Below are positions 28,337-34,918 of a DNA stretch of 64,000 nt, piece by piece. The notes under the pieces are model-generated. The model had not been told where the DNA came from, ran no database searches, and saw only the letters and a list, made by a program, of their open reading frames with translations. The stretch's first letter is position 1, and every line of letters starts with the position of its first letter. The stretch lies in contig NZ_CP063373.1 of assembly GCF_015160855.1 (NCBI RefSeq), positions 4,898,001-4,962,000 on the forward strand, in the 5' to 3' direction. Origin of the DNA: Streptomyces ferrugineus. GTDB taxonomy: Bacteria; Actinomycetota; Actinomycetes; Streptomycetales; Streptomycetaceae. Both the position numbers and the translations under genes were made by a program.

Positions 28337-29113
28337 TCAGCCGGACGCCCGGTCCGCCATGGGCATCAAGGTCACTACGAACTTGTAGCGGGAGCCGCGG
28401 TATACGGAACGGACCCACTCCACCGGTCTGCCCTCCGTGTCGTGCGAGTGTCGGGACAGCAGCATCATCGGAAGGCCCACGTCCGTCGCGAGCAGCCTGG
28501 CCTCGTACGGGGTCGCGAGCGAGGTCTCGATGCCCTCCTCGGCCTCCGACAGGTGCACGCCGTACACCTCGCCGAGCGCCGTGTACAAGGATCTGTACCT
28601 GGCCAGCGACTCGCGCAGGTCGGGGAAGCGCCGTGCGGACAGGTGGGTCGTCTCGACGGCCATGGGCTCGTCACCGGCCAGCCGCAGCCGCTCGATGCGC
28701 ACCACCCGCTCACCGACATCGATGTCGAGCAGACGCGACAGCTCCTCGTCGGCCTCGATATGACGCATGTCCAGGATGCGCGAAGCGGGTTCGAGGCCCT
28801 GTGCCTGCATCTCCTCGGTATGGGAGGTGAGTTGGAGGACGCGGTAGAGCTTCGGCCGTGCAATGAAGGTGCCTTTTCCATGGATCCGGTCCAGCCGGCC
28901 TTCACCGACGAGCTCCTGCAGCGCCAGCCGGACTGTGGTGCGCGAGGTGTTGAGCCGGACGGCGAGTAATCGCTCGGCCGGCATGCGTGAACCCGGCGTC
29001 AGCGACCCCGCGATCGCGAGGACCTGTTGCTTCACGCGGTAGTACTTCGGCACCCGTGCGGCGCCACCGGGCATGCCGGTGTCGTGCTGAACGATGCTTA
29101 CGTCGGTGGTCAT
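28337..29113 (-). CDS. GntR/HutC (UTRA) regulator, DasR-like
   Basis: The 258-residue protein closely follows the layout of DasR, the Streptomyces aminosugar regulator. Landmarks are the ARVPKYYRVKQQVL start, the winged-helix LNTSRTTVRLALQELVGEGR, the KGTFIARPK wing and the UTRA effector domain with LQLTSHTEEMQAQGLEPASR, ETTHLSARRFPDLR and VEWVRSVYRGSRYKFV. The ATG at 29113 has GGAAGGCAGGTC before it; the frame is open to 29341 but that part is not family-like. DasR-like sites lie in front of its own promoter and in front of the divergent operon at 29601. It likely controls both and may respond to a phosphosugar or related ligand. Confidence 0.88.
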   Translation of the reverse strand: MTTDVSIVQHDTGMPGGAARVPKYYRVKQQVLAIAGSLTPGSRMPAERLLAVRLNTSRTTVRLALQELVGEGRLDRIHGKGTFIARPKLYRVLQLTSHTEEMQAQGLEPASRILDMRHIEADEELSRLLDIDVGERVVRIERLRLAGDEPMAVETTHLSARRFPDLRESLARYRSLYTALGEVYGVHLSEAEEGIETSLATPYEARLLATDVGLPMMLLSRHSHDTEGRPVEWVRSVYRGSRYKFVVTLMPMADRASG

Positions 29114-29145
29114 GACCTGCCTTCCGGGCGCACTCGCAGGTGTCT

Positions 29146-29183
29146 CGTTATAGCCCCCAACTCGCCTTTGGTCTAGTCCAACT
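29146..29183 (-). promoter_or_regulatory. DasR-type operator overlapping the promoter of the dasR-like gene
   Basis: TTTGGTCTAGTCCAACT (29167-29183) contains the core TGGTCTAG of the published DasR site ACTGGTCTAGACCACT, with about 11 of 16 positions matching. On the minus strand TAGACC within it lies 17 nt from TATAAC, a plausible -35/-10 pair. Binding would block autogenous transcription. Confidence 0.6.
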
Positions 29184-33156: not shown

Positions 33157-33716
33157 GCGGGGGAGGGGCGGGCCACGACGAGCGCATCCGTCCCGTGCGC
33201 GACGGTGACTGGCCGGGCATAGCCGCGATGGAGGCGGCGGCCTACGCGGGAAGCTCACTGACCGAGGGCCGGGCGGCGCTGGAGTCGAAGGGGCGCGCCT
33301 CGCCGGACACCTGCTTCGTGCTGGACATCGAGGGGCGCGTCGCCGGGTACCTGCTCTCGCTGCCGTACCCGATGTTCCAGTACCCGGCGCTGGCCAGGTA
33401 CGACGAGGCCGTGCACGACTCGCGCAACCTCCATCTGCACGACATGGTCGTCGCGCAGGAGCAGCGGGGCAGGGGCTGGGGCGGCGGACTGCTGGCCCGG
33501 CTGACGGCCGCCGCGCGACCCCGGTTCCAGCACATCTCGCTCGTCGCCGTCGACGGCATGGCCGCCTTCTGGGCCGCGCACGGCTACCGGGCCCACCCGG
33601 GAGTCCGGCTCCCGGAGAGCTACGGCGACAACGCCGTGTACATGTCCATCGCGGTGCCCGGCAGCGGTACCAGCCATTCGAAGGAGGTGGCCCGGTTCCC
33701 GTGCCCCGTGTCCTAG
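33153..33716 (+). CDS. GNAT family N-acetyltransferase
   Basis: The 187-residue enzyme has a GNAT fold with the acetyl-CoA binding segment VVAQEQRGRGWGGGLLARLT and a preceding LHLHDM beta-strand. AFWAAHGYRAHP marks the C-terminal part. It starts at a GTG in a 4-nt overlap with the decarboxylase. Acylation of the amine made by that enzyme is a reasonable role, either as a biosynthetic step or as self-protection. The substrate cannot be read from the sequence. Confidence 0.8.
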   Translation: MSGGGAGHDERIRPVRDGDWPGIAAMEAAAYAGSSLTEGRAALESKGRASPDTCFVLDIEGRVAGYLLSLPYPMFQYPALARYDEAVHDSRNLHLHDMVVAQEQRGRGWGGGLLARLTAAARPRFQHISLVAVDGMAAFWAAHGYRAHPGVRLPESYGDNAVYMSIAVPGSGTSHSKEVARFPCPVS

Positions 33717-34918
33717 ACGACTTCAGACGTACGCAGTTGGCGATCGCGGCGCTGTTCTGTTTCCTCGGGTTCCAGTACGCCACCTGGATCTCCCGGATCC
33801 CCGCCCTCAAGACACGCCTCGACCTCAGCGCCGGGGAGGTGGGCCTGCTGCTCATGGTCACCGGGGCAGGCGCGGCGGCTTCCTTCCCGCTCGTCACGTT
33901 CCTGATGAAGCGCCTCGGAGCGCGCCACCTCGCCCTGCTGTCCGGGCTGGGCCTGGTGGCGATCCTCCTGGCGCTGTCCGTGGCTCCCAACTACCCCGTG
34001 GCGCTGGTGATCCTCTGCGCGGACGGCGTGGCCGTCGGCTGCCTGAACGTGGCCATGAACGCGCAGGGTGCCGCCCTCGAGGCGGCCCACGGACGTACGG
34101 CGATGACACAACTGCATGCCACCTTCAGCGCCGGTTCGTTCCTCGCCGCCCTGGTGTCATCCGGCGTGACCACGGTGACCTCCGGCATCGTCACCCACTT
34201 CGCCGCCGCGTCAGCCGTACTACTGGTGCTCCTCGCCTGCGCACGCCCGCGCCTGCTCGCCGAAGACGCTCCCGCTGACGAGCCGGCCGATCAGGAGGAG
34301 GGCAAACGCCGCCGCGGAATGGCCAGGCCGACCCGGGTGATGCTCTGGCTCGGCTGCACCATGGTGTTCGCCGAGGTGGTCGAAGGCTCCATGAACGACT
34401 GGTCCGCGCTCTACCTGAAGGACGTCGCCGGCGCATCGGCCCAGGTCGCTCCGCTGGGCATCGCGGTCATCTCGGTCGTGATGGTCCTCGCGCGCCTCTT
34501 CGGCGACGGCTGGCGCAGCCGCTGGGGCGACGCCGTTGTCGTCCGCGTCGGCAGCGCCGTGGCCGGCATCGGACTGGCGCTGGCACTGTTGGCCGGAGGC
34601 GTAGTGCCCGCGCTCCTCGGCTTCGCGTGCGTGGCGCTGGGCGTGGCCGCCGTGACGCCGTGCCTCTACGTCGCCGCCGCAGCCGAAGGCCCGCACGCCC
34701 TCTCCCTGGTCGCCGCCACCGGCACCACCGGCCTCCTCGTCGGTCCCGCCGTGATCGGCTTCGTGGCCGAAGCCAGCGACCTGACCTGGGGGATGGCCGT
34801 CGTGGCAGCCTCAGCCGTCATCGTCTCCCTGTGCACGACCCGCCTGAGCTGGGCCCCCACGAAGGCGACGTCCGAGGGGAGTATGGACACGGAGGTGGTC
34901 GGAAAGGGGGCCGCGTGA
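33701..34918 (+). CDS. MFS transporter, exporter-like (YbjJ type)
   Basis: The 405-residue protein has about twelve hydrophobic segments and the phrase FCFLGFQYATWISRIPALK typical of YbjJ/FucP-like transporters. A strong AAGGAGG lies 13 bases before the GTG at 33701, inside the end of the GNAT gene. It is the last gene of the operon and probably exports the product. The weak hairpin CCGCCC/GGGCGG at 34919-34936 may end transcription. Confidence 0.82.
   Translation: MPRVLDDFRRTQLAIAALFCFLGFQYATWISRIPALKTRLDLSAGEVGLLLMVTGAGAAASFPLVTFLMKRLGARHLALLSGLGLVAILLALSVAPNYPVALVILCADGVAVGCLNVAMNAQGAALEAAHGRTAMTQLHATFSAGSFLAALVSSGVTTVTSGIVTHFAAASAVLLVLLACARPRLLAEDAPADEPADQEEGKRRRGMARPTRVMLWLGCTMVFAEVVEGSMNDWSALYLKDVAGASAQVAPLGIAVISVVMVLARLFGDGWRSRWGDAVVVRVGSAVAGIGLALALLAGGVVPALLGFACVALGVAAVTPCLYVAAAAEGPHALSLVAATGTTGLLVGPAVIGFVAEASDLTWGMAVVAASAVIVSLCTTRLSWAPTKATSEGSMDTEVVGKGAA

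Follow-up and report, generated by a model that had tools for sequence, protein, structure and literature searches.

Gene content of the locus

The stretch of DNA analysed here, hereafter the window, comprises 64,000 nucleotides (4898001-4962000) of the one-contig genome of Streptomyces ferrugineus (9,959,088 bases) and contains a gene for a DasR-like regulator facing a five-gene operon of biosynthetic type; the best protein relatives bear Streptomyces names. The divergent arrangement, proposed in the initial annotation, was confirmed, with families assigned by Pfam and with the following features (numbered from the first base of the window):

28337-29113, minus strand: regulator of 258 amino acids with a GntR helix-turn-helix and a UTRA domain, a DasR paralogue (Pfam; 343 bits to DasR in the PDB; tree)
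29169-29180, plus strand: exact match to the core TGGTCTAGTCCA of the DasR-responsive element (dre), regulator side, one of 4 genome copies
29507-29522 (core 29509-29520), plus strand: predicted dre operator by consensus scoring (14/16), 80 bp 5' of the PhyH start
29601-30638, plus strand: PhyH-type Fe(II)/2-oxoglutarate dioxygenase (Pfam PF05721)
30635-31966, plus strand: DUF6271 protein, predicted GT-A-fold sugar-nucleotide enzyme (Pfam DUF6271, 752 bits)
31963-33156, plus strand: pyridoxal phosphate (PLP) decarboxylase, lysine/ornithine-decarboxylase-like (Pfam Orn_Arg_deC_N; PDB 2plj at 8e-36)
33153-33716, plus strand: GNAT acyltransferase (Pfam; 81/117 loci)
33701-34918, plus strand: MFS transporter, probable exporter (Pfam MFS_1; 79/117 loci)

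The first four operon genes are indeed joined by 4-nt overlaps, as had been claimed, each of which reads GTGA (30635-30638, 31963-31966 and 33153-33156), and the GNAT and MFS genes overlap by 16 nt.

Conservation across Streptomyces

DUF6271 was present in 123 of the 392 Streptomyces genomes and, in a class-wide sample, in 13 of 394 genomes, 12 of which belong to the genus Streptomyces. Our census comprises 117 loci (L numbers, as opposed to G numbers for genomes) including the window, and its counts are based on tblastn matches, since a simple gene caller merged or missed genes. Six of the 123 genomes lie outside it, three with distant members (G036, G155, G126) and three with a match in pieces, whose loci, fetched later, look like form B (G223, G374) or form A (G372) of the operon as described below.

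In all 117 loci PhyH and DUF6271 share a strand, with PhyH upstream and, in 114 of them, no more than 150 bp away. The decarboxylase was found in 80, GNAT in 81 and MFS in 79, with all five genes together in 77. Co-occurrence in other genomes, which the initial annotation had proposed as a check, is thus borne out and supports a conserved biosynthetic operon, a conservation that is well supported by the sequence comparison. PhyH relatives occur in 121 of the 392 genomes, 119 of them at 73% identity or more and every one of these with DUF6271; the other two, at about 50% identity, belong to genomes without DUF6271 (G059, G240). In the latter (L228, L229) the distant PhyH is clustered with carbamoyltransferase, radical SAM/SPASM, MFS, FAD oxidoreductase and GDSL genes.

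Two forms of the operon

Two mutually exclusive forms were seen among the loci, of which form A has the gene set of the window. In form B (32 loci; gene families from Pfam runs on representatives) PhyH and DUF6271 are kept, the decarboxylase and GNAT are replaced, and a condensation-domain protein and another MFS protein follow downstream, with a class-II aminoacyl-tRNA-synthetase-like protein, an 83-residue carrier-type protein and a phosphopantetheinyl transferase (PPTase) encoded divergently from the operon. The decarboxylase and the condensation protein were found together in none of the 117 loci. The synthetase-like protein matches structures of amino acid--[acyl-carrier-protein] ligases at 1e-23 and NCBIfam PRK07080 below its cut-off; like Bradyrhizobium Bll0957 (4h2w) it is class-II synthetase-like and has a PPTase and a protein of carrier type as neighbours, but unlike Bll0957 it is joined to a condensation domain, PhyH and DUF6271, and no such gene is present in the window. 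We infer that forms A and B represent one PhyH/DUF6271 core with two alternative finishing (acylation) modules.

The decarboxylase module is separable, being found away from PhyH/DUF6271 in eight loci (L220-L227) with decarboxylase copies at 67-69% identity; a GNAT relative is labelled beside it in 6/8 and members of a single glutamine-synthetase-like cluster in 8/8, one of these loci having been scanned. This context looks like another amine pathway, and several of these loci have a ketoacyl synthase III (KAS III) as well as GNAT.

Catalytic residues of PhyH and the decarboxylase

The residues H175, D177, H259 and R271 of PhyH (HxD...H and the 2-oxoglutarate-binding arginine) are kept in 117/117 loci. 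K49, H177, E262, R265, C335, D336 and Y366 of the decarboxylase are present in 78/78 (two of the 80 loci, with less than 80% of the length, were dropped), which makes it a fold-III PLP enzyme with the PLP lysine, EPGR and the second-subunit Cys-Asp all in place, like the bacterial lysine/ornithine decarboxylases 2plj and 5gjo. In contrast with named lysine/ornithine decarboxylases, the operon enzyme falls below every curated NCBIfam cut-off. GNAT found no match at 0.01 among PDB sequences.

Predicted fold of DUF6271

Structure prediction for DUF6271 was confident and gave a GT-A fold resembling the sugar-nucleotide mutases MtdL/UAM (GT75), with the GT75-like part covering most of the predicted model. 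A DSD motif and H300 are present in 116/116 proteins (one of the 117 loci was removed by the length filter) and may correspond to the DxD motif and metal-binding histidine of GT75. The likeness to GT75 (MtdL, Hyg20 and plant UAM/RGP; PMC9937993) consists of a predicted fold and, perhaps, of a DxD-type motif and a conserved histidine; neither sequence similarity nor a conserved catalytic-arginine candidate was found, and the operon is a different one. Pfam assigns DUF6271 to its own family with no GT75 membership; as a single sequence it had no match among PDB sequences up to E = 10, and three matches of its profile to PDB sequences at E ~1 were taken as chance.

The predicted fold makes it probable that the step for which the initial annotation had only the word 'modify' is sugar chemistry. 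The fold could also be read as that of a GT75-like nucleoside diphosphate-sugar pyranose/furanose mutase, not a transferase, whose unusual furanosyl intermediate would be oxidised by PhyH to give a modified sugar instead of a glycosylated amine. This seems unlikely to us: comparing profiles with three GT75-family proteins of Streptomyces gave no match (hhalign probability 0.5%), no conserved counterpart of the MtdL/UAM catalytic arginine was found in DUF6271, the candidate nucleophile position R159, placed by eye without coordinates, is arginine in only 64/116, and the operon showed no other gene for a sugar transferase. We prefer a role for DUF6271 in handling the sugar of a glycosylated amine.

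With regard to distant DUF6271 relatives, a clear reaction was not apparent from their neighbours (L052, L054). At L054 and L055 the distant relative is clustered with DegT aminotransferase, GT2, LOG-like and Asn-synthase genes, which suggests an amino-sugar product for that cluster. A TGA flagged inside some DUF6271 matches as a recoded stop was rejected: L061, the only one inspected, aligns over 431 residues without an internal stop, so the flagged TGA lies at the match edge.

Operators and the DasR paralogue

PMC4398421 gives the DasR consensus A(G/C)TGGTCTAGACCA(G/C)T and reports binding of S. coelicolor DasR to an element with the core TGGTCTAGTCCA by electrophoretic mobility shift assay. 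The DasR-type operators claimed at both promoters were borne out as predicted sites, their 12-base cores (29169-29180 and 29509-29520) being identical: the PhyH-side site is the only position in the 64-kb window to score at least 13, and the regulator-side site at 29167 matches 11/16 of the consensus. The exact core has 4 copies in the genome (its reversed pattern 2), two at the locus, one about 70 bp before dasR and one about 9 kb from dasR. The operator had also been said to overlap a TTGACA promoter; this did not hold, as TTGACA occupies 29495-29500 and the operator starts just after it, and no sigma-70-like promoter pair reaching 9/12 was found in 28000-35200.

In 89 of 116 loci (L122, with 211 bp upstream, was excluded) a core of at least 11/12 is located no further than 700 bp upstream of PhyH; the corresponding figures are 0/116 for reversed cores and 31/2320 for 700-bp stretches drawn at random from these loci. 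All 32 form B loci have an operator-like site and 21 of them have two, and of the 27 loci without a site near PhyH, 17 have a binding-protein gene, 16 of these with sites further upstream around the regulator/uptake genes. The presence of DasR-type operators at the locus is thus well supported at the level of prediction.

The regulator aligns with DasR in the PDB from residue 1 to residue 1, which supports a start at 29113, and without gaps over 250 residues, with matching recognition helix and wing. A second DasR-class gene of the same genome, at 8425190 and beside a DasA-type binding protein, is 65% identical to it. Of the 17 genomes compared, 11 carry a DasR-type gene in addition to the paralogue, and 6 carry one gene only. 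The tree joins the DasR-type rows to the single gene of G303 (support 91/100, short of the starred level) and places 12 of 13 locus regulators, among them that of the window, outside this true-DasR group. The DasR layout and operators of the initial annotation stand; judged by sequence identity and tree, however, the gene is paralogous and not orthologous to dasR, and the true DasR is encoded at 8425190. In G303 (L125) the only DasR-class gene found, which groups with true DasR, adjoins the PhyH operon, and the sugar-binding protein differs (35% identity); judging from this locus, the link of dasR to the operon may have arisen twice.

Such divergence raises the question of whether the regulator has left aminosugar sensing and now answers a product or intermediate of the operon itself, as a pathway-specific switch whose link to chitin is historical. 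Its modest identity to the genome's DasR, the tree position of the locus regulators (with the support given above) and its place in the window beside an operon without uptake genes all favour this idea. The gapless alignment to DasR argues against it, as do the operators kept in genomes without a paralogue at the locus (32/32 in form B), which point to aminosugar control by DasR, and on balance we regard a pathway-specific switch as improbable and favour an aminosugar-responsive operon.

Linkage to chitobiose-type uptake genes

A gene for a family 3 glycoside hydrolase (GH3) lies near the operon in 64/117 loci and a GntR gene in 32/117. The GH3 representatives tested resemble beta-N-acetylglucosaminidases, with an NCBIfam PRK05337 match just below cut-off, and no signal peptide was seen by eye in five GH3 N-termini. 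In 22 loci the five operon genes are accompanied by GntR, chitobiose-type binding protein, permease and GH3 genes, which in 18 run in the order regulator, binding protein, permease, GH3 and directly into the operon, the uptake genes of the remaining 4 lying beyond the regulator. The sense strand of L046 has a second permease-like frame (by eye), while the label BPDc19 was rejected as an antisense reading frame picked by the simple gene caller, not a gene.

The order in the 18 loci (regulator, binding protein, permeases, GH3) and the operator core are shared with the dasR-dasABCD chitobiose locus of S. coelicolor and S. venezuelae (PMC12370203). The differences are that the regulator is mostly the paralogue, that a biosynthetic operon follows, and that the window is without uptake and GH3 genes.

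The same association, together with the fact that decarboxylases and GNAT proteins of these types are also found in amine metabolism, would suit a catabolic or detoxifying operon acting on amino-acid or amine compounds that the cell encounters while using chitin, with the MFS protein as importer. We consider this very unlikely, as form B surrounds this PhyH/DUF6271 core with a PPTase, a carrier protein, an aminoacyl:carrier ligase and a condensation domain, all hallmarks of biosynthesis, and patchy presence (123/392 genomes) is typical of specialised metabolism. Biosynthesis with export is the reading retained below.

Neighbouring features

One further gene adjoins the regulator:

26607-28133, minus strand: AfsR-like XRE/NB-ARC protein (domain matches; start not settled)

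Of the 32 loci with a GntR gene, 13 have a copy at 60% identity or more, the fetched stretches often stopping near the regulator, and the protein may be a second regulator or co-regulator of the operon. Elsewhere in the window, an NmrA/ergot EasG-like reductase (36084-36962, minus strand) is divergent from an AraC/cupin regulator (37002-37946, plus strand), and the six-base tandem repeat GTCGAT occurs at 38994-39057 (10.7 copies, 96% matches).

Discussion

The gene set with its conservation and two forms, the intact catalytic residues, the operators, the paralogy of the regulator and the linkage to uptake genes can be read directly from the genomes, and we consider it fairly probable that they belong to a chitin/N-acetylglucosamine (GlcNAc)-responsive, DasR-family-controlled operon for an exported, acylated and probably glycosylated hydroxy-amine. 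The initial annotation had proposed a gene set able to hydroxylate, decarboxylate, modify, acetylate and export; the biosynthetic operon and its export gene stand, the modification is recast as sugar chemistry, and a second form does without the decarboxylase.

Aminosugar phosphate is the known effector of DasR. As to effector, substrate, order of steps, sugar and product, we infer that an aminosugar phosphate derived from chitobiose/GlcNAc would release the paralogue, and perhaps DasR too, from both operators, opening both divergent promoters. PhyH would then hydroxylate a substrate of amino-acid type, and DUF6271, as a metal-dependent GT-A-fold enzyme, would draw on a sugar nucleotide to attach or rearrange a sugar. 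The lysine/ornithine-type decarboxylase would form an amine, GNAT would acylate it and MFS would export the product. In form B the PhyH/DUF6271 core would be followed by coupling of a carrier-bound amino acid via the condensation domain.

Several observations weigh against this account. The decarboxylase is found in 89/392 genomes, in 5 of them without DUF6271 and so separate from the PhyH/DUF6271 pair. Among 19 loci from named organisms PhyH is next to DUF6271 in 11, and the other 8 (three Kitasatospora and five Streptomyces, some on short contigs) have no PhyH nearby, seven having DUF6271 and GNAT only and one DUF6271, decarboxylase and GNAT. Among the other ten of the 27 loci without a site near PhyH, five (L041, L095, L109, L115, L132) carry their only sites in other places, and no dre-like site was found in the fetched stretch of 6/116 loci (L119, L127, L140, L145, L153, L170). 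Uptake and GH3 genes are absent from the window, in which the regulator and operators remain; no sequence link between DUF6271 and GT75 was found; and structure prediction for PhyH failed (pLDDT, the predicted local distance difference test, of 40), its model being left unused.

No account of the operon or of DUF6271 was found in PMC text under open licence, in a search that extended neither to MIBiG nor to subscription papers, and within that scope the claim that no pathway with this gene set has been described holds. A DasR-type-controlled operon for specialised metabolites is known in kind; the novelty lies in the enzyme pair PhyH/DUF6271 at its core, undescribed in the open-licence text searched. 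It is tempting, if distinctly speculative, to go further and regard this pair as central to a class of Streptomyces metabolites not yet described, in which PhyH hydroxylates an amino-acid-derived compound and a new family of GT-A enzymes then glycosylates it. Such a compound would be completed along either of two routes, decarboxylation with N-acylation or carrier-bound aminoacylation, and its pathway would be wired to chitobiose uptake via a duplicated dasR.

The PhyH/DUF6271 pair is present in about one third of the sampled Streptomyces genomes (119/392), in an operon without a polyketide synthase or multi-domain nonribosomal peptide synthetase, which may escape routine mining, and for DUF6271 a fold can now be predicted and the kind of chemistry it probably carries out can be named. 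GlcNAc and DasR form a main nutritional switch of antibiotic production in Streptomyces. With such an operon joined to chitobiose genes, what these bacteria make in direct response to chitin becomes a testable question and, should the wider reading be true, chitin digestion and production of the compound would become a single regulatory act.
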